This document shows, piece after piece, positions 6,180 to 25,802 of a DNA stretch of 64,000 bases. How positions within the stretch are numbered: the stretch's first letter is position 1; every line of letters starts with the position of its first letter. This DNA is from Bacteroidales bacterium. GTDB taxonomy: Bacteria > Bacteroidota > Bacteroidia > Bacteroidales > UBA932. The translations under genes and the position numbers were made by a program. Under the pieces are notes generated by a model. The model was not told the origin of the DNA, ran no database searches, and saw only the letters and a list, made by a program, of their open reading frames with translations. The stretch spans positions 186,001 through 250,000 of the forward strand of contig JAFPWG010000011.1 in NCBI GenBank assembly GCA_017395045.1, written 5' to 3'.

Positions 6180-8617
6180 TGAAACAATTCAGACTGATCC
6201 TTATCCTTGCGTTCACCCTGACTGCATGCCAGACGCAGACGGTGCAGCGCAACGCCCTGCGCGCTCCGGCCTATCCGCTTGTATCCATCGACCCGTACAC
6301 CAGTGCCTGGAGCATGTACGACCACCTGTACGACGGGCCGGTGAAGCATTGGACCGGGGCGGAATTCCCGCTCATCGGTGCCTTGAAGGTGGACGGCGAA
6401 GTGTACCGTTTCCTCGGCATGGAGGAAGTGGAGCTGAGTCCGTTGGCCCCTCTGGCGGCGGAAACGCCCTGGCGGGGTGCTTACACCTTCTCCGAGCCCA
6501 AGGGCGACTGGTTCGCCGAATCCTACCGGCCGTCCGGCTGGAACGAGGGCCCTGCCGCCTTTGGAACCCCGGGCTACCTGACTTCCCTTACGCCCTGGCA
6601 GACTGAAAAGGTATGGGTGCGCCGGGAAGTGGAGGTGTCCGAGGATCTCAGCGGCAAGCGGGTGTATCTCGCCTACAGCAACGATGACGACGCCGTTTTC
6701 TACATCAACGGCGTGGAGGTGCTCAATACGGGGCACGAGTGCCATACGAATGCCTTTACTCCTGTTCCCGACGGGGTGCTCCGGGAGGGAAAGAACCTGA
6801 TTGCCGCCACCTGCACGGACACCGGCGGACTGGCTTATCTGGACATGGGGCTGATGCTTCAGAACGAGCTCCATACGGCCCTTGAGCAGGCCGCGGAGCA
6901 GCTCTATGCCGACGTCCAGGCTACCCGGACGCATTATGGCTTCCGCTGCGGCCCCGTGGAGCTGGAACTCAGTTTCACCGCCCCGCTCTTCCTGGACGAC
7001 CTGGATCTCATCTCCCGCCCGGTGAACTATATCAGCTACAAGGTAGTATCCCGGGATGGCGGGAAGCACGACGTCCAGCTGTACCTGGAAGCCTCCCCCC
7101 GCTGGGCGACCGACCAGGCGGGACAGCCTTCCCGCAGCGAAGCCTACACCGACGGGCAGGGCGTCTGGCTGAAGTGCGGCAGCCAGGCACAGCAGGTCCT
7201 GGCCAAGCGCGGGGACGATCTCCGGATTGACTGGGGCTACTTCTATCTCCACGCAAAGGACGGTCAGGTGGGAACCGGAACCGGCCTGGCGCTTCGTGAG
7301 GCGTTCCTCGGCGGTATCCCCTTCTCCGCCACTTCCGGAGAGAACCTTGCCGGCCGGATGGCCCTCGTGAGAAAGGTGGATGTCGGACAGGAGGATCATG
7401 TCCTCATCGGCTACGACGACCTGTATTCCATCCAGTATTTCGGGGAGAACCTCCGGCCCTATTGGAACCGCAGCGGGGACAAGACCATCCAGGACATGTT
7501 CGCGGCGGCGGAAGCGGATTATGCGGAACTCCTCCGGCGCTGCGACGACTTCGACCGCCGCCTGATGGCCGACTGCGAAAAAGCCGGCGGCCGGAAATAT
7601 GCCGAGCTGTGCGCCCTCGCGTACCGCCAGTCCATCCACGCCCACAAGCTGGTGCAGGCCCCGGACGGAGCGATTCTCTGGCTTTCCAAGGAGAACAATT
7701 CCAACGGGTCCATCGGCACGGTGGACATCACCTATCCGTCGGCTCCGCTGTTCCTTTACTATAATCCCAAGTTTGCGGAATACTTGATGAACCACATCTA
7801 CTATTACGCGGAAAGCGGACGCTGGACGAAGCCTTTCCCCGCGCACGATGTGGGCACCTATCCCATGGCCAACGGGCAGACGTACGGCGGCGACATGCCG
7901 GTGGAGGAGGGTGGCAACATGATCATTCTCACCGCCGCGGTCTGCAAGTTCGAGGGGAATGCCGACTATGCGGAGAGACATTGGGAAACCCTCACGGTCT
8001 GGGCCGATTACCTTCGCCAGTTTGGACTCGATCCGGAAAACCAGCTTTGTACGGATGACTTTGCCGGCCATTTTGCGCATAATACCAACCTTTCCATCAA
8101 GGCCATCCTGGGCGTTGCCTCCTATGGATACATGGCCGGGCTGCTGGGCAGGCAGGCCATTGCCGATGAATATACGGCAGCCGCCCGCGAGATGGCCTCC
8201 CGATGGGTAGAGATGGCCGACGACGGCGACCACTACCGGCTTACTTTCGACAAGGAAGGAACCTGGAGCCAGAAATACAATCTGGTCTGGGACAAGCTGT
8301 TGGGACTGGACATCTTCCCGGACAGTGTCGCTCGGAAGGAGATCGCCTACTATCCGTCCCGCTTCAACGAATACGGGCTTCCACTGGACAACCGGGAGAC
8401 CTATACCAAGTTGGACTGGATTATGTGGACCGCCACCATGGCTTCCGACAAGGCCACCTTCGAATCCTTCATCGAACCGGTCTGGCGTTTTGAGAATGAA
8501 ACCATGGACCGTGTTCCCATGTCCGACTGGGTGTTCACCGACAAGCCCAATTACCGGGGATTCAAGGCCCGGAGTGTGGTGGGAGGCTATTTCATCAAAC
8601 TCTTGGAAACGAAATGA
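6179..8617 (+). CDS. DUF4965/glutaminase-A-like lipoprotein
   Basis: 812 residues from the ATG that overlaps the previous stop (TAATG); an in-frame ATG two codons earlier is possible. A lipoprotein signal ends at LTAC. Domains in order: a short DUF4964-like start (PLVSIDPYTSAWSM), a jelly-roll insert at about 140-220 (KRVYLAYSNDDDAVFYING), DUF5127, then a six-hairpin alpha/alpha barrel of the DUF4965/DUF1793 type (AYRQSIHAHKLV, GTVDITYPSAPLFL, NLSIKAILGVASY, WSQKYNLVWDKLLGL). Fungal relatives are called glutaminase A, but the Bacteroidetes ones sit in glycan loci and their substrate is unsettled. The neighbours here are mannosidases, so glycoside or glycopeptide cleavage is as plausible as glutamine hydrolysis. 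Confidence 0.85.
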   Translation: MKQFRLILILAFTLTACQTQTVQRNALRAPAYPLVSIDPYTSAWSMYDHLYDGPVKHWTGAEFPLIGALKVDGEVYRFLGMEEVELSPLAPLAAETPWRGAYTFSEPKGDWFAESYRPSGWNEGPAAFGTPGYLTSLTPWQTEKVWVRREVEVSEDLSGKRVYLAYSNDDDAVFYINGVEVLNTGHECHTNAFTPVPDGVLREGKNLIAATCTDTGGLAYLDMGLMLQNELHTALEQAAEQLYADVQATRTHYGFRCGPVELELSFTAPLFLDDLDLISRPVNYISYKVVSRDGGKHDVQLYLEASPRWATDQAGQPSRSEAYTDGQGVWLKCGSQAQQVLAKRGDDLRIDWGYFYLHAKDGQVGTGTGLALREAFLGGIPFSATSGENLAGRMALVRKVDVGQEDHVLIGYDDLYSIQYFGENLRPYWNRSGDKTIQDMFAAAEADYAELLRRCDDFDRRLMADCEKAGGRKYAELCALAYRQSIHAHKLVQAPDGAILWLSKENNSNGSIGTVDITYPSAPLFLYYNPKFAEYLMNHIYYYAESGRWTKPFPAHDVGTYPMANGQTYGGDMPVEEGGNMIILTAAVCKFEGNADYAERHWETLTVWADYLRQFGLDPENQLCTDDFAGHFAHNTNLSIKAILGVASYGYMAGLLGRQAIADEYTAAAREMASRWVEMADDGDHYRLTFDKEGTWSQKYNLVWDKLLGLDIFPDSVARKEIAYYPSRFNEYGLPLDNRETYTKLDWIMWTATMASDKATFESFIEPVWRFENETMDRVPMSDWVFTDKPNYRGFKARSVVGGYFIKLLETK

Positions 8618-16390: not shown

Positions 16391-18223
16391 CTATTTGCTT
16401 TCACTTCCGCCGGAGCGTCGTTTCAGCCTGTCCTCGTACTTTCGGACCAGCTTCTTGATCCAAGTTCCCGAGCAGCCGTACTTCTCGCCGAGCTTATCCC
16501 AACCAACGCCCGCATCGTGTTCCCGCTTCAACCTCGGTGCATCGTCTGGACCAGGTTTCCGCGATGGTGACGACGTTTGCTGTGTGGGCGTCGTGGTTGT
16601 GGTCGTTCCCTTTTCCACGACCGCTTCCGCCTGCTGACTCTTTTCGCGCAGATAGTTCTGTTCATCGGCGAATTTGTGAAGATATCTCTCCATCACGTAA
16701 TCAGCAATGTACTGAACGAGCCCGACAACCTGGTTCCTTGCATCGGGGTTGTCCTTGCCCGGTTCACCAGCGAGCTCATGAAGAACAATGCCACAATGGA
16801 ATGCTATCGCTGCAATTCTGGCTCGGGCATCCTTTCTTGCGAGGTTGCCGTCGGCCTTGTAGATGGGAACTTGGTCATCGAGCCATTTTTGCAGCGCCTT
16901 GTTCACGTAGTCAAGGTCCACGATGGTTTCCGGGCAAGGGACATCATTACCGAGCTCATCCTGGGTATAGACGAGTCTCTTCCGCCAGTCGTCAATCCTA
17001 TCCCGAATCTGGTCAAGAAGGGCATCCTCGGCAAGCTCGACCGACTGCAACTTGTCATCGCTGTCCGGAATGAGACTGAAGATGTACCTGGAGACCATAC
17101 CACCCTGCAGATTGCCACGAGTGAAAGCGGCAACAGCGTCAGGCGTACCGGTATAGAAGACGTTCATGAAGACCGGGAACATACCCTTCACGGAATCCTT
17201 CGCCTTGTTGTTCTGGTAGACGGGGTCGTTGTCGAAAGCCTTGCAGTAATGCGCCGTGGTCAGGCCGTTCTTCTCCTTCATGGCCATGTTGACGTCCACC
17301 AGCTCCGGCTCAAAGTCAAAAATGTGAATCCCGCTGTTGGCCGCAAGGACGTCGAACAGCTTGGACCTGGTAACGGAAACGCCAACGTTCTGGATGATCT
17401 TCTTCGTCTTCGGTGCCGCTCCCTTGCTTCCGTTCGTTTCGTAGAGCTTGGCCTGGTCCGATTCGATGACACGCTTGAACAGCCTCTTGAAAATCTGACC
17501 GAACTTCGCCTTTCCCTGTCCCCAGTTGCCCTCCACGATCACTAGAAGGTTCGGCGCATGGAGATTCCCGTCGAGATATTTGGCACGAACGCGGGAAAAG
17601 GCCAGGGCTCCGAACGCCGAGAGAAGCAAGAACAACATCGGCTCGAAATACCCAAGCGGACAGCACGCCAGGATATAGCCCAAGGGGTCCGGCAGGCAGA
17701 GGAGATTCGGCTTGGGATGCTTGGCGCGGAACCGTTCCATCCAGGTCTTCTTCATGGGCGTTTCAGGGTCACCGGGATTCAGCTCCCCGGTTTCCTGCTC
17801 CTCCTTCACCTTGTACTCCTTGTCGATGCGCTTCTTTTGCTTATACTCGGCAACGGAGCACTTCATGCCGACGACCTGCTTGACGGTATCCTTGGCCATG
17901 TCCCAGAGGCTAGCGATACCCTTCAACTGACGAAAAGCGCTGACCGTGCCGTTCTTGGCGCGCTCGATGATGTCACCCGTGTTACGACCGGCGGCTGATA
18001 CGGAGAAGGGACCGAGGCCGAGGCTGACGCGTTCCTGATTACGGCGCTCATACCGGGATTGTCTACGTTTCCCGGAACGACGCTGATTGAGAGGTACATC
18101 GATGGGGGAGCCGGAGCCCCCCATCGGATTCAGATTCTCAAGGCCATCCTTCAGGCCCTGAGCCAAGTCCAGACCACACTCCCGCGGTCGGACGTAGTTG
18201 TTACGATAACTTCTTCTGGCCAT
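16391..18223 (-). CDS. DUF3987-like replication ATPase with a C-terminal helix-turn-helix
   Basis: 610 residues from the ATG at 18223 (MARRSYRNNYVRP); in-frame codons further upstream run into the small gene before it. The first 180 residues are basic and low in structure. The core resembles DUF3987 primase-helicase-like ATPases of Bacteroidetes elements: hydrophobic segment YFEPMLFLLLSAFGALAF, a Walker A-like loop VEGNWGQGKAKFG (232-241) in which the usual Ser/Thr after GK is Ala, a Walker B-like IHIFDFEPEL, and GGMVSRYIF late. After a Thr/Pro-rich linker the last 50 residues form an HTH (AGVGWDKLGEKYGCSGTWIKKLVRKY). It probably works in element replication, and the altered P-loop is notable. 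It overlaps the preceding gene by 23 bases. Confidence 0.65.
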   Translation of the reverse strand: MARRSYRNNYVRPRECGLDLAQGLKDGLENLNPMGGSGSPIDVPLNQRRSGKRRQSRYERRNQERVSLGLGPFSVSAAGRNTGDIIERAKNGTVSAFRQLKGIASLWDMAKDTVKQVVGMKCSVAEYKQKKRIDKEYKVKEEQETGELNPGDPETPMKKTWMERFRAKHPKPNLLCLPDPLGYILACCPLGYFEPMLFLLLSAFGALAFSRVRAKYLDGNLHAPNLLVIVEGNWGQGKAKFGQIFKRLFKRVIESDQAKLYETNGSKGAAPKTKKIIQNVGVSVTRSKLFDVLAANSGIHIFDFEPELVDVNMAMKEKNGLTTAHYCKAFDNDPVYQNNKAKDSVKGMFPVFMNVFYTGTPDAVAAFTRGNLQGGMVSRYIFSLIPDSDDKLQSVELAEDALLDQIRDRIDDWRKRLVYTQDELGNDVPCPETIVDLDYVNKALQKWLDDQVPIYKADGNLARKDARARIAAIAFHCGIVLHELAGEPGKDNPDARNQVVGLVQYIADYVMERYLHKFADEQNYLREKSQQAEAVVEKGTTTTTTPTQQTSSPSRKPGPDDAPRLKREHDAGVGWDKLGEKYGCSGTWIKKLVRKYEDRLKRRSGGSESK

Positions 18224-18428
18224 TTCTGGGTCGATGGTTACGAGGATGGGTGCGGCGGTACTCTTGGCGCATCTTCCACGAGGCATCTTGGGCCTTGATG
18301 ACCTTGCGCCAAGCGAGTCCAGCGGCGATAGGACCACCGATGGCCGCACCGAGTTTGAAGATTTCGGCGGAAGCCTCCAGGAAGTCCAGGAAGCTATCCC
18401 ACCTTGAAGACGAATTATTATTCTCCAT
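18201..18428 (-). CDS. Small membrane protein
   Basis: 75 residues from the ATG at 18428 (MENNNSSSRWDSF). An amphipathic first half leads into a Gly/Ala-rich hydrophobic segment (FKLGAAIGGPIAAGLAW) and then a strongly basic tail ending RPRNGQKKLS. The start overlaps the preceding HTH gene by 11 bases and the end overlaps the ATPase gene by 23 bases, which indicates translational coupling. This is one of three small proteins with a hydrophobic segment in the same unit. No family recognised. Confidence 0.65.
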   Translation of the reverse strand: MENNNSSSRWDSFLDFLEASAEIFKLGAAIGGPIAAGLAWRKVIKAQDASWKMRQEYRRTHPRNHRPRNGQKKLS

Positions 18429-18882
18429 CGTTCTTCTGATTTTGTTGGTTAGAATCCTTTTTGCGACGTGCGTAGACGGTCTTGACGGAGATGTCAAGAC
18501 GAGCGGCGATTTCCTTCGCAGGAACGCCTTCGCTCTCCCACGCACGAATAAGTGCTACTTCCTCGTCGGTGAGCTTGCGCTTGGCTACACCGGCGGGGGC
18601 ATGATGGTAAACAGGTTCCTCGGCCGTACATCCATCGTTGTCGTGGCCTTTGACATCGACGGGAAGATCGGACGGAGGAAGTAAAGTCGGTTCACCCTCG
18701 GGCATAGGACGGCCGCTCCTGCTAGCATTGGAACGTTTGCCGTTGGTGACGATGTAGAAGATACCGGCCGTTGCGAGTCCCAGGATGTACCCGAGGACGC
18801 CGGCCTTGGTCGTGGAAATGGACCCGGAGCCACTGGGGGTTCCGAGCGGAGCGCTTGAAGGCGCAGATGATGTACTGGACAT
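18418..18882 (-). CDS. Membrane-anchored helix-turn-helix protein
   Basis: 154 residues. A Ser/Pro/Gly-rich N-terminus leads to one transmembrane segment (AGVLGYILGLATAGIFYIV, about 27-45), a Pro/acidic linker, and a C-terminal HTH of the Hin/resolvase type (LTDEEVALIRAWESEGV, then AKEIAARLDISVKTVYARRK). A DNA-binding domain tethered to the inner membrane by an N-terminal segment is unusual, and a second protein of similar plan is at 22065. It could dock DNA to the membrane or sense a signal. It is 14 bases downstream of the methyltransferase gene and overlaps the next small gene. Confidence 0.7.
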   Translation of the reverse strand: MSSTSSAPSSAPLGTPSGSGSISTTKAGVLGYILGLATAGIFYIVTNGKRSNASRSGRPMPEGEPTLLPPSDLPVDVKGHDNDGCTAEEPVYHHAPAGVAKRKLTDEEVALIRAWESEGVPAKEIAARLDISVKTVYARRKKDSNQQNQKNDGE

Positions 18883-18896
18883 ATTGGTAAAAATGG

Positions 18897-19784
18897 TTAT
18901 GCGGACTTAAGCCAGGCCATGATTTCGTGATGCAGGCTGAACGGCGGGTTGTCGATCACGATGTCACATGCGTCCTTGATGGCGGTACATTCGGCGCTAT
19001 CGAAGGAGCCGTTGCCGGAGAGCCTCGTGATGGTGACCACCGCGCCGTCATAGTCATACCGCCATGCCCCATCCCCTCGGTCGAAGCAGGTGGCGGTGTA
19101 GTGGGCGAGACCGAGTTCATGGAAATGTTCGGTGAAGTACGCGACGAACTGGGACTGCCTGTAGTCTGAGAAGGGGGAGTAGATCCGTTTGCCCCTCAGT
19201 TCCCGTCTGTAGTGTGCAACCTCTGCGGCGATGTCGGAAATGTGCGTGTAGAACTCGTCGTCCTTTGCCGTGCGAGCCTTCTTGAGTTTTTCGTTTTTTG
19301 CCATAGGCGTAACTTTTTGGATTATAATGCGTGTAAATAGGTTCTTCCCGTTAAGCCTGCCCTGATGCCCAAGAACGTACTCGCCATCGATCACAGTGTG
19401 CTCGCCCGTCAGCATCCCCAGCGTCCTATAGCCGGGGAGCGGGTTTTCGAGATACGTGACCGGAACTGCCAAGGGACCCTCGCAGTCGTAGGGGATGTCT
19501 TTCACACGGCTGACCTCGATGGCGTCATAGTTGTCGAGCTTGGGATACGCGGTCGGATTCTCGCTGTAGGACTTGACGAGGGTCGCGGTCTTGCGCACCT
19601 TCTCGCCGTCACCCTCTAGGTTCGTGAACCAGAGCGAGGCAACCGACTTCTCCGTGCCGTCTGGTCTGGTGAAAGACTTCGGCTTGGTATAGCCGACCCT
19701 GACCTCGCCGTCTTTTATCTGGGGGAAGGTGTCCGTTACGTATCCCATTGCGCTCTTCGATCCGAGCAGGAGGTATTTCTTCAT
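18897..19784 (-). CDS. EcoRI-family adenine methyltransferase with swapped halves
   Basis: 295 residues. The family (M.EcoRI and phage relatives) methylates adenine N6 using SAM. All family blocks are present but in circularly permuted order. Residues 1-160 carry what is normally the C-terminal half: KKYLLLGSKSAMGYV, SLWFTNLEG, YPKLDNYDAIEV, KDIPYDCEGPLAVPVTYLE, LNGKNLFTRIII. Residues 161-295, beginning with Met161-AKNEKLKKARTAKDDEFYT, carry the normal N-terminal half: DIAAEVAHYRREL, FTEHFHELGLAHYTATC, and the catalytic DNPPFSLHHE (NPPF 279-282), ending 13 residues later. In M.EcoRI the segment after NPPF continues directly into the KKFLIIAN block, so the new termini fall exactly there. All motifs look intact, so it may be active. 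It lies in the middle of the leftward unit. Confidence 0.85.
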   Translation of the reverse strand: MKKYLLLGSKSAMGYVTDTFPQIKDGEVRVGYTKPKSFTRPDGTEKSVASLWFTNLEGDGEKVRKTATLVKSYSENPTAYPKLDNYDAIEVSRVKDIPYDCEGPLAVPVTYLENPLPGYRTLGMLTGEHTVIDGEYVLGHQGRLNGKNLFTRIIIQKVTPMAKNEKLKKARTAKDDEFYTHISDIAAEVAHYRRELRGKRIYSPFSDYRQSQFVAYFTEHFHELGLAHYTATCFDRGDGAWRYDYDGAVVTITRLSGNGSFDSAECTAIKDACDIVIDNPPFSLHHEIMAWLKSA

Positions 19785-19819
19785 ATTCGTATCAATTAAT
19801 TTGCGACCGGCGGAGGTAT

Positions 19820-19846
19820 CACCCTCTTATCACCGGCCAAAGGGTG
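19820..19846 (-). repeat. Intercistronic inverted repeat
   Basis: CACCCT at 19820-19825 and AGGGTG at 19841-19846 with a GC-containing loop, immediately after the stop of the small membrane gene and before the methyltransferase. It is weaker than the hairpins at 20195 and 21182. Confidence 0.4.
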
Positions 19847-20176
19847 CTAGTCGCTGTCGTTGCGACACTCATACCTGCGCTTGCGGATGTAGGAAATGAA
19901 ACCGCAGACTCCGACGCCGATGATGGCACCACCTGCGAGACCGCCGACGAGGGTCTTCCGACACGCAGCAGCAGTACGAATGCCATACTCATAGTAGTTC
20001 TGTGCGGCATCCACTAACTCCATGATGGTCTCCACCGACACTCGCGACCATTTCTTTCCTGGCGTGCTGCGGTTTTCATCATCGATTGCATCGCAGAATG
20101 CGACTACGGCTGGGGCTGCTGGCCGCTTGACCAGATTGGATGCCCCTGTGTTGTTGGATTGATTGTGTTGTGACAT
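19847..20176 (-). CDS. Small membrane protein
   Basis: 109 residues. A polar N-terminus (MSQHNQSNNTGASNLVKRP) and a helical middle (VETIMELVDAAQNYYEYGI) precede a Gly-rich transmembrane segment (TLVGGLAGGAIIGVGVCGF, about 75-94) and a short basic tail. No family recognised. It lies between the radical SAM gene and the methyltransferase in the leftward unit, with a GC-rich hairpin upstream (20195-20222) and another downstream (19820-19846). Confidence 0.6.
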   Translation of the reverse strand: MSQHNQSNNTGASNLVKRPAAPAVVAFCDAIDDENRSTPGKKWSRVSVETIMELVDAAQNYYEYGIRTAAACRKTLVGGLAGGAIIGVGVCGFISYIRKRRYECRNDSD

Positions 20177-20194
20177 TGGTATTGTTGTTTTAGT

Positions 20195-20222
20195 GGCCTG
20201 GCGGGGCGAGCCCGCCGAGGCC
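20195..20222 (-). repeat. Intercistronic GC-rich hairpin
   Basis: GGCC-T-GGCGGG pairs with CCCGCC-GA-GGCC around a CGAG loop, between the radical SAM gene and the small membrane gene. No T-run follows, so it is unlikely to be a simple terminator. Similar hairpins are found at 21182 and 19820. Confidence 0.6.
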
Positions 20223-20230
20223 GGTTTGTA

Positions 20231-21151
20231 CTAGTCCTTGCAGTCGCTCTGGCCACCGACGACCTTGGCGATGGACTCCTTCCAGCTGATGAGGGGGTCG
20301 TCCTTGTAGCGGTCGTAGATCGCCTTGATGTTCGAGTCGGCGTACCAGACGGTCATCAGCTCGTTGTACTTGGCCTCCGTCTGCGGGTTCCAGTGGCCGT
20401 TGTTCTTCATCCGAGCCTTGCCCCGGTTCATCTTGCCGATCCAGATGGAATCGGTGACGAAGGGCCGGAGTTCGGAGATGAGGCTGTCGATGTCGCCTCC
20501 CCACCAGGGCTCGACGGAAATGCCGGTCCCATAGCCATGCTCGAAGGCGTATTGGAGACAGGCCTTGCGCTCCTCGTAGGACGGCGCTCCGGGCTCCCAG
20601 AACTTGAGGACTTCGTTGTCGGTGCTGCCGATGGTGAGACGGAAGGTGATGCGGTCCTTCTCGGCATCGAAGCGGGTGCAGATGGACGTGACCACTTCCT
20701 CATAGGGCTTGAGGACGAGGAGGAGGTCGCTGCCGCTGTCCAGGATCTGCTGGATCTTCTCCTCGCAAGGGTCCAGGAACTCGGGCGAGATGTTGTGGGT
20801 GGACGGGAACATGGTCAACTTGCCGCCTTTGGGAACCTTCGCATTGAAGGCTCGCTCGTTCAGAACCTCGGTCTCCCACTGGCCGGGGGCAACCATCTTG
20901 AACCGGTTGGCGATATCAGCGGCAAAACACCCAAGGCACCCACAGTTGCAGCCTCGGATGATGTTGATGGTCCGGTCTGCCCACTGATGGGTACCGAAGG
21001 CCCTGCTGGCGGCCTCCTTGATCTTCTCCTGGTCACCGCTGGCGACAGCGGCGGTTAGTGCTTCGTCGGCGGCCGTGATGACCTTGCCGACTCTCTTGAC
21101 GGTCTCCTCCCGGGCGGCGAGCGCTCCGGCGGTCATAGTTTTCTTGTTCAT
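20231..21151 (-). CDS. Radical SAM protein related to SplB/DUF5131 proteins
   Basis: 306 residues. A cysteine cluster at 68-75 (RGCNCGCLGCFA) fits CxxxCxxC (Cys68, Cys72, Cys75) for a SAM-bound 4Fe-4S cluster, with an extra Cys70. After it come alternating strands and helices of a partial TIM barrel: KLTMFPSTHNI, DLLLVLKP, ITFRLTIGST, LKFWEPGAPSYEERKACLQYA, GYGTGISVEPWWGG, DSIWIGKMNRGKARM. The WEPGAPSYEERKACLQYA and SVEPWW pattern is like spore-photoproduct-lyase relatives and the phage DUF5131 (Gp37/Gp68) family. The substrate is unknown; DNA or RNA is plausible given the methyltransferase in the same unit. Spelling of the first 55 residues gives no domain. Confidence 0.7.
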   Translation of the reverse strand: MNKKTMTAGALAAREETVKRVGKVITAADEALTAAVASGDQEKIKEAASRAFGTHQWADRTINIIRGCNCGCLGCFAADIANRFKMVAPGQWETEVLNERAFNAKVPKGGKLTMFPSTHNISPEFLDPCEEKIQQILDSGSDLLLVLKPYEEVVTSICTRFDAEKDRITFRLTIGSTDNEVLKFWEPGAPSYEERKACLQYAFEHGYGTGISVEPWWGGDIDSLISELRPFVTDSIWIGKMNRGKARMKNNGHWNPQTEAKYNELMTVWYADSNIKAIYDRYKDDPLISWKESIAKVVGGQSDCKD

Positions 21152-21181
21152 CGTGTCATGATAATAATGGTTGGTTTGGAA

Positions 21182-21209
21182 GGTTGGGGCGGATGAGACC
21201 GCCCCAACC
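21182..21209 (-). repeat. Perfect 11-bp intercistronic hairpin
   Basis: GGTTGGGGCGG at 21182-21192 and CCGCCCCAACC at 21199-21209 with a 6-base loop. It lies between the DUF1848 gene and the radical SAM gene. There is no T-run on the transcribed strand, so an RNA-stabilising or processing element is more likely than termination. Confidence 0.7.
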
Positions 21210-21220
21210 GTGGGAATCCG

Positions 21221-22039
21221 TCACTTTCTGACGGGGTTTTCATAGCAGTACAGGCAGCCAGACGGGCACGGCTTTGCGGGCCAGCCACCTAGGTCCAGGT
21301 CGAAGCAGCAGCCGCAGAGCGGGCGACCGAGTCTCTTTTTCTTCTCATGAACGAGTGAGCGGTGGGTAGGATGCAGCTCTTCCAGGCGGTCAGCGTCGAG
21401 GCAGTGACCCATGGGAAGTCCGGGGACCGCACAGGCGGACAGGTTTACGCCGTACTTCGCGGCGACGGCCATCATGCCATCGGCAATCTGTAGACGCTCG
21501 GTGTCATCCGGGGCCAACAGCGTGAACCCCTCCTTCCTGAAGCGTGAAGTGACCTTCTTGTGCATGTCGTTCTCGACAAAGGAGGTTGCGAAGTCCTCCA
21601 CCCCCAGCGCGGCACAGGCGGCCATGATGGGCTCGAAGAGGTCGTAGTTGCTGTGGACATCCCCGGCAGCATCCCTGCAGCGGAGCTGAGGGTCGATCCG
21701 GAGCTTAATGCGGCGGACGTCACCGATGAAATCAGCGACAGAAGGGATGGTAGCTACTGTGTCCTTCCAAGCAGGAACACCAGGCTCAATATCGGTACCA
21801 CCCATGCCGGTGATGGTCAACTGGAGGCAGACTTGGACACCCTGGCACTGGATGTCAACAAGGAATGAGCGCAGGGGCTCGGAGAGAAGTGCGGCTGGAA
21901 ACTTCGTCCAGATCATGAGAGTGTGAGGGTCCCAGCCGCGTGCGACGGCGGCATGGAAGGCGTCAATCAGCGCCTGAGGGTACCACATGGCCAGGTCTAC
22001 AATGCGACTGGCGGAGAAAACTACAGGTAACGTTTTCAT
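21221..22039 (-). CDS. DUF1848 protein with a C-terminal CxxxCxxC cluster motif
   Basis: 272 residues from the ATG at 22039 (MKTLPVVFSASRIVDL). DUF1848 features in order: VVFSASRIVDLAMWYP, TLMIWTKFPAALL, VCLQLTITGMGGTDIEPGVP, IGDVRRIKLRIDPQL, then EDFATSFVENDMHKK. The C-terminus carries CGCCFDLDLGG and CPSGCLYCYENP, where CPSGCLYC fits CxxxCxxC. The family is treated as a radical-SAM relative that binds its cluster at the C-terminus instead of the N-terminus; the reaction is unknown. It directly precedes a second radical SAM gene, so two iron-sulfur enzymes may act in sequence or as a pair. Confidence 0.8.
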   Translation of the reverse strand: MKTLPVVFSASRIVDLAMWYPQALIDAFHAAVARGWDPHTLMIWTKFPAALLSEPLRSFLVDIQCQGVQVCLQLTITGMGGTDIEPGVPAWKDTVATIPSVADFIGDVRRIKLRIDPQLRCRDAAGDVHSNYDLFEPIMAACAALGVEDFATSFVENDMHKKVTSRFRKEGFTLLAPDDTERLQIADGMMAVAAKYGVNLSACAVPGLPMGHCLDADRLEELHPTHRSLVHEKKKRLGRPLCGCCFDLDLGGWPAKPCPSGCLYCYENPVRK

Positions 22040-22064
22040 AATACTGTGATTATAAGGGTGAAAC

Positions 22065-22631
22065 TTAAGCTGCGAGGAGGGTGGCGCAAGATGTGGGACA
22101 AGGAGTCGGGGCACCACCGCTGAGGACACGGCTGATAGACCGTGCCCCCAAGCCGGTAGCTTTCGAGATTTGCCAGATGGACATGCCCTTTCCGTGGAGA
22201 AGGATGATAGCTGATACCACGACGCGCGGCATCTCCCAGTTTCCGGACTCCTTCCCATCAAGCGGTGAGCGACGACCGTGCTTCTCGGTGGACTTCTCAG
22301 TAGACGTCACGGTGGGCTTGACGACGGGCTGGGCTGAATGGTTACAAGCAGCGCGCTCTTCTCGGTGGTCGGACACAGGGACATGCTGGCTGCTGATACG
22401 AATACGACGACGACTTCCGCCAGGACGGATCTGGGATAGGTCGATTCTTCCGATGTCGTGAATGGAAGGTGCGTCGGGAGAAGTACCTGCCGGGGTCTGG
22501 GGCTCCGGTGTGGTGGGGGTGTCGGTGTCAGCGGCGGTGCTGGTACTCGATGATCTACGGGCGCTGGCCACGAGGGCGACAGCTCCGAAAACGGCTGCGA
22601 AGGCAGCGGCAGAAATAATAATTTTATTCAT
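22065..22631 (-). CDS. Membrane-anchored helix-turn-helix protein, second copy of the plan
   Basis: 188 residues. An N-terminal hydrophobic segment (IIISAAAFAAVFGAVALVA, 4-22) is followed by a Ser/Thr/Pro-rich linker, a basic stretch (GGSRRRIRISS), and a C-terminal HTH (VVVSAIILLHGKGMSIWQ, ISKATGLGARSISRVL). The order hydrophobic segment, disordered linker, HTH repeats the plan of the 154-residue protein at 18418, although the sequences are not close. The segment could also be read as a secretion signal, but a cytoplasmic HTH makes an N-in anchor the better model. It is 21 bases after the excisionase-like gene and 25 bases before DUF1848. Confidence 0.65.
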   Translation of the reverse strand: MNKIIISAAAFAAVFGAVALVASARRSSSTSTAADTDTPTTPEPQTPAGTSPDAPSIHDIGRIDLSQIRPGGSRRRIRISSQHVPVSDHREERAACNHSAQPVVKPTVTSTEKSTEKHGRRSPLDGKESGNWEMPRVVVSAIILLHGKGMSIWQISKATGLGARSISRVLSGGAPTPCPTSCATLLAA

Positions 22632-22652
22632 CTTTAATATTTTTAAAAATGT

Positions 22653-22949
22653 TTATTTTCTCTTCATGTCACGGCTGGGGCGAGTATTCCGGGCTTTGAA
22701 CTCCAGGATGGCCTTCTTCGGGTACACTACACGATGTGGCCCAATTTTGCGGAACGGGATGACGGCACGGGACCGATAATTCGCCATCGTCCGCTCGGAT
22801 ACCTTTAGAATCTGCATTGCCTCCTCGGTCGTAATCTCGCCATCCTCATCCTCCTCAGCAGGGGCTGCGGATTGCACAAGAGAGACTCGGCTGAGTTCCT
22901 CACGAAAAATTCTTCTTATGTCTTCTTCCGTTAATACCGGAATTATCAT
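22653..22949 (-). CDS. Excisionase-type helix-turn-helix protein
   Basis: 98 residues. Residues 1-30 form an acidic helix (TEEDIRRIFREELSRV). Residues 38-85 form a MerR/Xis-like winged HTH: ITTEEAMQILKVSERTM, then ANYRSRAVIPFRKIG and HRVVYPKKAILEF. Proteins of this type in Bacteroidetes elements act as recombination directionality factors or transcription activators. It is first in the long leftward unit and is separated from the integrase unit by the terminator at 23037. Confidence 0.8.
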   Translation of the reverse strand: MIIPVLTEEDIRRIFREELSRVSLVQSAAPAEEDEDGEITTEEAMQILKVSERTMANYRSRAVIPFRKIGPHRVVYPKKAILEFKARNTRPSRDMKRK

Positions 22950-23031
22950 TATTGTTGTCGGCGAGGGCTATGGTTCTCCCTTCACCGGCAGCAAAAGTCG
23001 GCAAAATAAAAGGGGGAAAACGGGGAAGAAG

Positions 23032-23064
23032 AAAAAAAGAGCTGCTCATTTTCGAGCAACTCTT
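23032..23064 (-). terminator. Rho-independent terminator of the integrase unit
   Basis: On the leftward strand, AAGAGTTGCTC (23064-23054) pairs with GAGCAGCTCTT (23047-23037) with one G-T pair, followed by seven T residues. It begins at the stop codon of the hypothetical gene and separates it from the excisionase unit. Confidence 0.8.
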
Positions 23065-23936
23065 CAAAGGCTATTCTGGATGACTTGTCGTAGTCGGGAG
23101 CGAAACTCCTCTGATCTATGGGATTCCCGTTTTTTGAGAGTAATGGGTGCGCCTGCCAATCCTATGAATTTGTTTTCAACAATTCTTCGGACGTATCTGT
23201 TTTCAAGATCAACACCAAGCTCTTCGAATGTGATATAGAGCAAATGCATGTTGGTGCCTGTGGCGGTAGATGTTTCCTTAATCCACTTGATGCTATATCC
23301 TGTCGGGATACGCCCCATGTTTATAAAAAGGGCGAGAAATGCGTTGCGTGTTTCGGTATCATTATACAAACAGCCTTCTTTTACTAGAAAATCGTATACG
23401 GCAAGAATTGTATTAGGGCCGTATGTAGTAAACAATCTTTCGCCTACGGAGAAATCTTTTTCGAGATGTAAGCCTAGTTTGTTCGCCTTGGGGGCCAAAC
23501 GGACGAATAAACAGTCAAGATAATTTCTATAGATGGTCATTGTCGGTGAAAACTCGTCCGAGTTTGCCTTCCTTACGAACCGAAGTGCCTGTCCAGAGAA
23601 CGTTGGCGGGAAGGATTCCAAAAGCTCTTTCGGCATTGAGAAAACGTGCTCCAAATATTTGTTGATTTCTTCCTCACTTATGTCCATAGACAAATTCAGT
23701 TTCTCAATGGGGTCGATAAGAAAGTCCGGGTTGTCAACGATCGCTCGCAAACCGGCAAGGGCCGAAGCGAAATTGGTGACAGTGTTCTTCTTTTTTATGC
23801 CATCAATTAGCCTCTCTGCAATTGATAGAGGCGGAAGACTCGGAGATAAAGAAATAATAGCACTGTAGAGAGGAATGACGACTTCCTCTTCCAATGAGCT
23901 TTTAAGAGACCTGCGATTATTTGATGTTGGGGGCAT
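23064..23936 (-). CDS. Hypothetical protein linked to the integrase
   Basis: 290 residues, no signal peptide and no transmembrane segment, probably cytoplasmic and mostly helical. Segments such as PIEKLNLSMDISEEEINKYL and YRNYLDCLFVRLAPKANKLG suggest an all-alpha fold. I recognise no motif or family. It starts 16 bases after the integrase stop on the same strand and ends in a good terminator, so it is co-transcribed only with the integrase. It may assist or regulate recombination, or may be cargo. Lower GC than the flanking chromosomal genes. Confidence 0.65.
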   Translation of the reverse strand: MPPTSNNRRSLKSSLEEEVVIPLYSAIISLSPSLPPLSIAERLIDGIKKKNTVTNFASALAGLRAIVDNPDFLIDPIEKLNLSMDISEEEINKYLEHVFSMPKELLESFPPTFSGQALRFVRKANSDEFSPTMTIYRNYLDCLFVRLAPKANKLGLHLEKDFSVGERLFTTYGPNTILAVYDFLVKEGCLYNDTETRNAFLALFINMGRIPTGYSIKWIKETSTATGTNMHLLYITFEELGVDLENRYVRRIVENKFIGLAGAPITLKKRESHRSEEFRSRLRQVIQNSL

Positions 23937-23952
23937 AATTCTACACGGATTA

Positions 23953-25485
23953 TTAAATGGTTTTTGAACCCTTGCCCGCTTTCTTCCGCCGATACTCCTC
24001 CAGCATAGCAGCCAAATCCTCTTCCGGAAGCTCTGCCAGTTGCTTTAAAAGATCTCTCTTGTGCACCATCTCTGGTGCGAGCGGCTTGAAAATCTCCCTA
24101 AGCGCATCATCTCGGGCATCGGTACTAAACCTTCCCATGTACCGCTCCGTCGTGCTTATGCTGGAATGTAGAAGTAAGCCCTGGACCAGAGAGTTGTCCG
24201 TGTGAACTTCCTTGGCTAAGCGGGCGAATGAATGGCGAGCGATATGAGTGCTGAGGGGCTTCGTCAGGCCGGCCATAGTCCGGATCGTCCGAAGGCCGTT
24301 GTTGACCATCGATTCTTTCGAACTGATTGTCTCCTTATATTTGAGTTTGTCCTGACCGTCCATGCTGTCCAGTTCTCTATCGGACATGATTCGCTCCCAC
24401 TTGTCCTTGTACTTTCCCGTGCGCATATACGGAAAGATGTAGCTGTTTGGGTCGGCATCGTCACGACGGTATAGTTCCAATATTTCGACGGCTAACGGCA
24501 GAAGTGGAATATCCTGGATCTTATGATTCTTCTCCATCTGGTAACGGAGTCGACCATCGGTGGTGATATTGCGCCACCGCAGACACAGTAGGTCGCCAAT
24601 ACGGACACCAGCACAATACATGGCAAAAAGGAAAAAGTTGCGGGAGTGCCATTCGCGGCTGCCTTCGGGGAGATCAAGGGCGATAATACGTTGAATCTCC
24701 TCAAGGGTCAGTTCTTCACGCTGCGTCTCTTCCTTACGAATCTTGTATGTATTGAATGGGTTATCCTCACGGTGTATTAGTTTCTCGTCCGCCGCCTTAT
24801 TGAGCAGGGTCCGGAAATAATTGAGAATTTTAGCGATATAATTCTGGTGTAGCCTGGGCGAACCTGGCGTGGATTGGTCGGGTTTGACGTTCTTACCATC
24901 AACCTTCACCGAGGACATGTACTGCTTGTTGTCCAGCGTCTTCATAAAAGCCTCAAAGTCGCTGACAAAGGAATAATCAATCTCTTTGAACTTGACGTGA
25001 TACGGGTCTCGTCGCCGGCTCTCCATATATGCGGAGAACTTCCTACATACCTGATCGTATTTCCGGTAGCTGGAAAGCTTACCTTCATTCTTGAACCTAT
25101 CCCGATACCGCTCGGCGAACTCTAGGAAAGAATCCGACCGGTCGCCGCCCCGCAGTTCTTCAATGATACGGTCAGGGCTGGACTCTTCCTGCAACCGGCG
25201 ATGAATCCCTTTTGCTTTTTCCATCAACTGATCCAGGTTGTTTTGCCAGTCATCGCGGTTTGGCTCAGTATACCTGATTTTTTGACGGGATTGATCCCAA
25301 TCGGATTTGCGGCTTAACGTCACATCGGACTTATAACGCAAGTGACGACCGTCCTCCGTAATTCTGAGGAAGACGGGGTAACCGGTGGATGTCTTGCGCA
25401 GTTCGAAATTGAAGGTGATTACCTTCCTTCTTTCGAGGGTCACTTTGCCATCGGAAGTCTGCTCTATCGTTTCAGTGTTATCCAT
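23953..25485 (-). CDS. Tyrosine recombinase (integrase) of the element
   Basis: 510 residues from the ATG at 25485. An arm-binding domain (FNFELRKTSTGYPVFLRIT) comes first, then a SAM-like core-binding domain (about 115-230, SDSFLEFAERYRDRF) and the catalytic domain. Catalytic residues: Arg295 in AGVRIGDLLCLRW, His414 and Arg417 in STHIARHSFARL, His440 in LLLHSSISTTERY, and Tyr449. The length is typical of Bacteroidetes integrases. A TATCTTTG box lies at 25499-25492, only 6 bases before the ATG, so the mRNA would be nearly leaderless. It is next to tRNA-Leu, with repeated GTGTAAAAT sites between, as expected for an element inserted at a tRNA 3' end. Confidence 0.95.
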   Translation of the reverse strand: MDNTETIEQTSDGKVTLERRKVITFNFELRKTSTGYPVFLRITEDGRHLRYKSDVTLSRKSDWDQSRQKIRYTEPNRDDWQNNLDQLMEKAKGIHRRLQEESSPDRIIEELRGGDRSDSFLEFAERYRDRFKNEGKLSSYRKYDQVCRKFSAYMESRRRDPYHVKFKEIDYSFVSDFEAFMKTLDNKQYMSSVKVDGKNVKPDQSTPGSPRLHQNYIAKILNYFRTLLNKAADEKLIHREDNPFNTYKIRKEETQREELTLEEIQRIIALDLPEGSREWHSRNFFLFAMYCAGVRIGDLLCLRWRNITTDGRLRYQMEKNHKIQDIPLLPLAVEILELYRRDDADPNSYIFPYMRTGKYKDKWERIMSDRELDSMDGQDKLKYKETISSKESMVNNGLRTIRTMAGLTKPLSTHIARHSFARLAKEVHTDNSLVQGLLLHSSISTTERYMGRFSTDARDDALREIFKPLAPEMVHKRDLLKQLAELPEEDLAAMLEEYRRKKAGKGSKTI

Positions 25486-25532
25486 CGCCCGCAAAGATAA
25501 TGAAAAAACCGGGGGATGAGAACGTTTCTCCG

Positions 25533-25718: not shown

Positions 25719-25719
25719 G

Positions 25720-25802
25720 TGCGGTAGGTGAGAGTCGAACTCACACACCCCAACGGGCACTACCCCCTCAAAGTAGCGTGTCTACCATTTCACCACTACC
25801 GC
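25720..25802 (-). tRNA. tRNA-Leu (anticodon GAG)
   Basis: 83 bases including the discriminator A, CCA not encoded. Acceptor stem GCGGTAG pairs with CTACCGC. The anticodon stem CTACT/GGTAG encloses the 7-base loop TTGAGGG, anticodon GAG. A long variable arm (TGCCCGTTGGGGTGT region) fits class II Leu, and the T arm contains GAGTTCGACTCTC. It reads leftward, with its 3' end towards the integrase. Confidence 0.95.

Follow-up and report, generated by a model that had tools for sequence, protein, structure and literature searches.

The EcoRI-type adenine methyltransferases make up the Pfam family PF13651, whose namesake we take to be M.EcoRI. Among restriction systems, those of type I can combine one M with several S genes. 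Their methylation and recognition subunits are separate (PMC3874165), and M.AquI and M.EcoHK31I are described as C5-methyltransferases of two polypeptides each (PMC3404938). For the gamma group of amino-methyltransferases the order of elements is given as X-I-II-III-IV-V-VI-VII-VIII-TRD (PMC2890505). Natural permuted C5-methyltransferases such as M.BssHII, according to PMC5944983, carry their cut in the variable region in every case and keep each domain intact, and for other permuted methyltransferases a break after motif II, in the naming of that paper, is given (PMC1282579). A review names two main routes to permutation and takes independent polypeptides in relatives as evidence for fission and fusion (PMC3320104). 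In the open-licence PMC literature we found neither a description of a permuted or split EcoRI-type enzyme, in agreement with the preliminary description of this DNA, which knew of no permuted family member, nor one of a single catalytic half combined with several second halves.

Here we analysed a gene of this family in the window, by which we mean the whole stretch of 64,000 nucleotides from a Bacteroidales genome (Table 1). The gene starts with ATG and contains no internal stop, and as judged from its sequence it is a circular permutation of an EcoRI-type adenine methyltransferase. In a Pfam-A scan the whole protein matched PF13651 (EcoRI_methylase) with 181.6 bits against a cut-off of 26.4, this being the sole strong family, with two others remaining under their cut-offs. 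Each half passes the PF13651 cut-off by itself: residues 1–159 alone match profile positions 163–342 (E 2.3e-20), while residues 161–295 alone match from profile position 2 (E 7.9e-33). In the genome search, the profile segments follow each other in a single frame in the order 162–342, 2–71 and 116–160, and we therefore place the cut between profile positions 160 and 162. The preliminary description had read the C-terminal half as coming first and the N-terminal half second, and had suggested aligning the halves with PF13651 separately; this alignment confirmed the reversed order within one frame, and the motifs it quoted are, together with Met161, all present. No second PF13651 match was found in the source genome (2.67 Mb, 96% complete).

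Table 1. Features of the permuted methyltransferase gene and of the element that carries it (positions in the window)
Feature	Position	Strand	Basis or remark
Compact integrative element carrying the gene	16391-25494	(-)	From the DUF3987 gene to the tyrosine integrase
DUF3987 gene of the element	16391..18349	(-)	Homologues in G778 (81%), G860 (79%), G855 (38%)
Gene directly downstream of the methyltransferase	18418..18882	(-)	C-terminal helix-turn-helix; matches below Pfam cut-offs
Permuted EcoRI-type adenine methyltransferase gene	18897..19784	(-)	295 aa, C-half then N-half; Pfam and ORF reading
Family N-half, aa 161-295	18900..19304	(-)	Profile 2-71 and 116-160; SAM-binding/catalytic part by homology
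Catalytic NPPF (motif IV), aa 279-282	18939..18950	(-)	Sequence motif
SPFSD, aa 203-207, replacing the usual CNCDD	19164..19178	(-)	Alignment
DEFYT motif, aa 176-180	19245..19259	(-)	Alignment
Joint, aa 156-177	19254..19319	(-)	Read as flexible linker; pLDDT <50 at residues 159-177 of the model
Internal Met161 (ATG)	19302..19304	(-)	Aligns with N-half start codon in two-gene G778 (GCCTATG common)
Family C-half, aa 1-160	19305..19784	(-)	Profile 163-342; begins MKKYLLLG at the strand after the NPPF helix
Tyrosine integrase of the element	23953..25494	(-)	Pfam
tRNA-Leu (gag)	25719-25802		Adjoins the integrase

Structure models place the break inside the Rossmann domain, just past the NPPF helix. 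In the model of a normal-order control, residue 133 is the last of this helix and residue 137 the first of the following strand, bearing out the earlier view that the point after NPPF is where the permuted protein ends and begins. The Dim1-matching part of the same control comprises residues 16–192 and spans the break point. Since the N-half stops short of the strand after the NPPF helix, it holds no whole methyltransferase domain of the kind found in a type I-like M subunit. The model of the permuted protein itself is middling (pLDDT 74, pTM 0.61) and yielded no clear match in the PDB. Its alignment (A5) comprised the 3 fused rows, 12 shortened copies of these as anchors, which contribute no independent depth, 52 C-halves and 6 N-halves; a further alignment (A4) was dropped because MAFFT placed C-half rows over N-half columns when the halves were aligned with the fused rows.

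A scan of genome contigs, in keeping with the earlier suggestion to search for other permuted homologues, returned two further fused permuted genes, L008 (RUG12971, genome G860) and L009 (RUG619, genome G855), with 84 and 85% full-length identity to the window gene. Their record titles name an uncultured Bacteroidia and an uncultured Bacteroidales, their RUG names presumably denote rumen genomes, and both are members of the window's own genus. Because the fused permuted gene recurs in two further genomes of the genus, the arrangement in the window is not an assembly error. Over the whole gene, the three sequences differ with dN of 0.10–0.12 and dS of 0.57–1.15 (NG86), which gives dN/dS values between about 0.09 and 0.17; taken separately, both halves likewise show low dN. 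The fused permuted gene is real and under selection.

We additionally considered that the gene is in decay or has ceased to encode a methyltransferase, leaving the permuted frame as a relic. This reading could draw on the middling structure model, on NQPF in the place of the expected NPPF in the L009 copy, and on an Asp that is invariant in normal-order rows (103 of the 103 with a letter there) and is replaced by Ser in each of the four permuted or swapped members, a Ser also found in the separate N-half of the phage locus L156. However, an open frame in three genomes at 84–85% identity, the low dN in both halves and the retention of NPPF and DEFYT in the window gene and L008 render a relic very unlikely. 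The PFSD of the window protein is common to its three permuted or swapped relatives, and its SPFSD is close to the YSPCDDYR seen in several separate phage N-halves.

The same swapped order exists as two genes in G778, a further genome of the window's genus, where the halves lie upstream of the same neighbour gene as in the window. The TGA of the C-half gene and the ATG of the N-half gene overlap in ATGA (L058:1528-1531), and the heptamer GCCTATG at this spot is common to G778 and the three fused genes, in which the upstream frame runs into the N-half frame at its ATG, i.e. at Met161, retained in three of three. We therefore regard Met161 as the old start codon, as the preliminary description had done; its further reading of this Met as a duplication seam is not sustained, since G778 shows here the start of a separate gene. 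The C-half of G778 shares 42–45% identity with the fused ones and the N-half 50–55%, and the larger distance of the C-half would fit a history in which C-halves were exchanged next to a single N-half. A second start at Met161 might also yield a free N-half that pairs with C-halves in trans, in line with the alignment of this Met, present in all three fused genes, with the two-gene start codon and with the existence of N-halves as free genes in phages. We hold such a two-protein product to be improbable, since our search of the window's own genome, which is 96% complete, gave no further PF13651 C-half and the retained ATG is the only direct sign.

By scanning viral contigs with N-halves, C-halves and separate N-halves, we found 11 IMG/VR contigs in which the halves are separate genes. 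A PF13651 search of 12 whole viral records, the twelfth of which (that of L164) holds a fused normal-order gene with a C-half piece and lies outside the 11, detected exactly one N-terminal region in every record of the 11, extending from profile position 1 or 2 to about 70–75; these records may be fragments, and a second N-half could lie beyond them. Each contig carries 1–5 C-half genes, 29 in total when a 40-aa piece is not counted, ranging from one complete C-half each in the L160 and L240 contigs to five beside the single N-half of L155. The genes are tightly packed: in 10 contigs, the two genes lie within 60 nt of each other in 24 of 28 successive pairs, of which 15 show an overlap of exactly 4 nt; start codons in these overlap measurements were chosen by a scripted pattern. 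A C-half gene lies directly upstream of the N-half gene in three contigs (L159, L161 and L160); in the L160 contig, whose ends share a 26-nt repeat, the C-half gene stops where the N-half gene starts. The L157 array adjoins genes for an HNH endonuclease and a large terminase.

C-halves within an array keep a common core at a mean identity of 41% (32 pairs), compared to 37% between arrays (374 pairs, counting also the C-half of the window protein). N-halves of different phage contigs share 59% on average (45 pairs). In the related arrays L155 and L156, the N-halves are 86–87% identical, the shared C-halves 96, 82 and 76%, and the first C-halves 46%. Of 10 gene pairs examined, dS was computable for 6 and dN lies below it, four of these being C-half pairs; in the other 4 dS was saturated. 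As far as the gene content allows this reading, one N-half shared by several C-halves is possibly a multi-specificity methyltransferase. We propose, with about even confidence, that phages carry an adenine methyltransferase split in the middle of its fold into one catalytic half and exchangeable halves that set the target, that the reverse fusion of one such pair gave rise to the permuted enzyme, and that one gene set would thereby serve against several restriction enzymes. A possible, somewhat less probable explanation is that the array C-halves are not specificity sets, one pairing with the N-half and the extra ones being idle duplicates or inhibitors, as the two of 11 contigs with a single complete C-half (L160, L240) might suggest. 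Against idle copies stand their divergence to 41% identity despite the common core, the exact 4-nt overlap in 15 of 28 successive gene pairs and the excess of dS over dN in those six pairs. We consider these phage arrays, with one catalytic half and several second halves, the larger find and the most interesting part of this work.

Descent was addressed by trees of the N-halves. In a careful tree of 47 rows (11 separate, 4 permuted and 32 drawn at random from 120 others, with 10 long-branch or odd rows left out, among them L243 and L187, the latter an N-half whose 541-aa frame continues past the locus edge and has no C-half match), the four permuted or swapped sequences cluster at 100/98. They are joined first by the separate N-halves L155 and L156 at 99/87 and then by L157 and L158 at 99/91, and the 11 separate and four permuted or swapped N-halves form one group at 84/91. 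The bootstrap of this tree was unsettled, and in the AU test a tree with the 8 nearest separate N-halves as a clade without the permuted ones stays acceptable (p 0.172), so that nesting of the permuted clade among separate N-halves is favoured, not proven. A larger, quick tree of 145 rows likewise puts the four inside a group with 8 separate N-halves (98); here the long-branched fused L243 lies inside that group, and the separate N-halves L163, L236 and L240 lie elsewhere. The C-half trees are weakly resolved. From the rows of one of them, as from those behind the G778 identities, we had removed duplicates, further extracts of a gene already present and short halves. In another, the sequences closest by path to the permuted set, beyond the set itself, are separate C-halves, at weak support.

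Matches at E ≤0.001 occurred in 17 of 200 relatives with a single-protein query, and in 51 of 393 genomes at the level of the order and 45 of 398 at that of the family; the window genome is counted in each, and one contiguous permuted frame was seen in these searches only for the window's own gene. A phylum draw queried with the N-half gave matches in 17 of 296 genomes, and in all 11 loci taken from other genomes of this draw the N-half comes first. Among 117 distinct full-length frames, which include overlapping extracts of one gene, 113 run from N to C; the remaining 4 run from C to N and represent 3 genes (window, L008 and L009), the fourth frame being a cut copy of that of L009. Of 164 viral loci classed (loci rather than contigs, some overlapping), 119 hold just one normal-order fused gene and none a fused C–N frame on the plus strand. 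The 268 viral frames with a match comprise 142 N–C, 35 N, 90 C, one N–C–C and no C–N.

Some frames depart from these orders in other ways. The N–C–C frame (L274:5167-6618, 484 aa) has a short second C match and is possibly a fused two-module form, and L175, L230, L232 and L233 hold frames of ~700 aa with some 360 residues between the N-half and C-half matches. The normal-order genes L126 (G617) and L114 (G221) are each divided into two frames, at a profile point common to both that lies ~21 positions inside the C-half; this may reflect a frameshift, an error in the sequence or a second place of natural splitting.

These counts bear on permutation by duplication, in which tandem normal-order copies are trimmed at both ends to leave a C-half followed by an N-half, the route that the preliminary description had assumed. 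Tandem normal-order pairs do exist in the family, in G792 (L121; same genus, 66%) and in the viral loci L190, L219, L312 and L315 (46–71%), and duplication therefore stays a rival; moreover, DNA methyltransferases are given as an example of this route (PMC3320104), and experiments on C5 enzymes are said to support the model (PMC5944983). However, neither N–C–N nor C–N–C occurs among 165 cellular, plasmid and phage-record frames and the 268 viral ones, L274 being the one N–C–C. In addition, the permuted N-half has its nearest relatives in free-standing N-half genes, on contigs that also hold free-standing C-half genes, and the same-genus G778 has the swapped order as two ATGA-overlapping genes at the same Met, rendering duplication unlikely. 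Fission and fusion is the reading that we prefer, since the halves stand alone in relatives, which is the evidence named for this route in PMC3320104; these independent units, in G778 and 11 phage contigs, are known as genes only.

The methyltransferase gene resides on an element that contains genes for a tyrosine integrase, an excisionase-like helix-turn-helix protein, a radical-SAM-like protein, DUF1848, the methyltransferase, a further helix-turn-helix protein and DUF3987. Related elements with variable cargo are present in G778, G860 (two) and G855, and homologues of the downstream helix-turn-helix gene were found in the same genomes with 67, 44 and 47% identity, respectively. Just upstream of the permuted gene in L009, a frame at 7390-7938 resembles, by eye, a phage Dam-type N6-adenine methyltransferase. 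In the plasmid loci L149, L150 and L152, a DUF262-domain gene directly follows an EcoRI-type methyltransferase, a possible defence pairing. A search for the EcoRI endonuclease family (PF02963) gave no match in the window's own genome or in any control genome.

From family membership and motifs, the permuted enzyme is expected to bind SAM and to methylate adenine at N6. The C-half is the predicted site of target recognition because of its place in the gamma order (PMC2890505), several C-halves would then correspond to several targets, and the element or phage would presumably gain protection from restriction.

We propose a model, which we consider likely, in which an EcoRI-type N6-adenine methyltransferase was made by fission, reordering and fusion in reverse order, its halves folding into one active domain that serves as an orphan protector of its element. 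In this enzyme the usual second half, holding the last Rossmann strands and the probable region of target recognition, comes ahead of the usual first half with the SAM pocket, DEFYT and the catalytic NPPF. In the ancestral lineage, the enzyme would have been cut into two genes before the permuted fusion took place. A C-half gene upstream of an N-half gene would subsequently have fused with it, a small frame change having removed the stop codon that overlapped the N-half ATG, as the two-gene relative suggests, with this ATG left behind as Met161. Connected by the flexible joint of ~20 residues, both parts would fold together as a single active domain. Phages of the parent lineage may use one N-half gene with several C-half genes, which would encode interchangeable specificity subunits. 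On the integrative element, the fused enzyme would act as an orphan modification enzyme, most likely shielding the element from host restriction. The permutation would thus be visible with its likely intermediates, i.e. fused in normal order, split, split and swapped, and fused in swapped order, in contrast to the review in which DNA methyltransferases exemplify permutation by duplication (PMC3320104).

Compared to the EcoRI-type methyltransferases of PF13651, the window protein is alike in that both halves match the profile with DEFYT and NPPF kept, and differs in the reversed halves and in SPFSD for CNCDD. With the gamma group it shares a SAM region before motif IV and a motif IV of NPP type; in contrast to that group it has all sequence beyond motif IV at its N terminus, and its order is none of the alpha, beta and gamma orders given in PMC2890505. 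As in M.BssHII and the other permuted C5-methyltransferases, a DNA methyltransferase has been circularly permuted in nature, whereas the window enzyme is broken inside its Rossmann domain and its expected target is adenine. The break thus falls within the SAM-binding fold, as opposed to the variable-region cuts of the natural permuted C5 enzymes (PMC5944983). The phage systems, known here from their genes, resemble M.AquI and M.EcoHK31I as methyltransferases in two parts and differ from them in having up to five alternative second halves per catalytic half. With type I systems they would share one catalytic subunit and separate specificity subunits, if the specificity predicted for the arrays holds, but their split runs through the Rossmann fold and the second subunit also provides core strands. 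If the second halves are indeed specificity subunits, these phages already contain a set of adenine methyltransferase specificities that can be swapped and put to the test.
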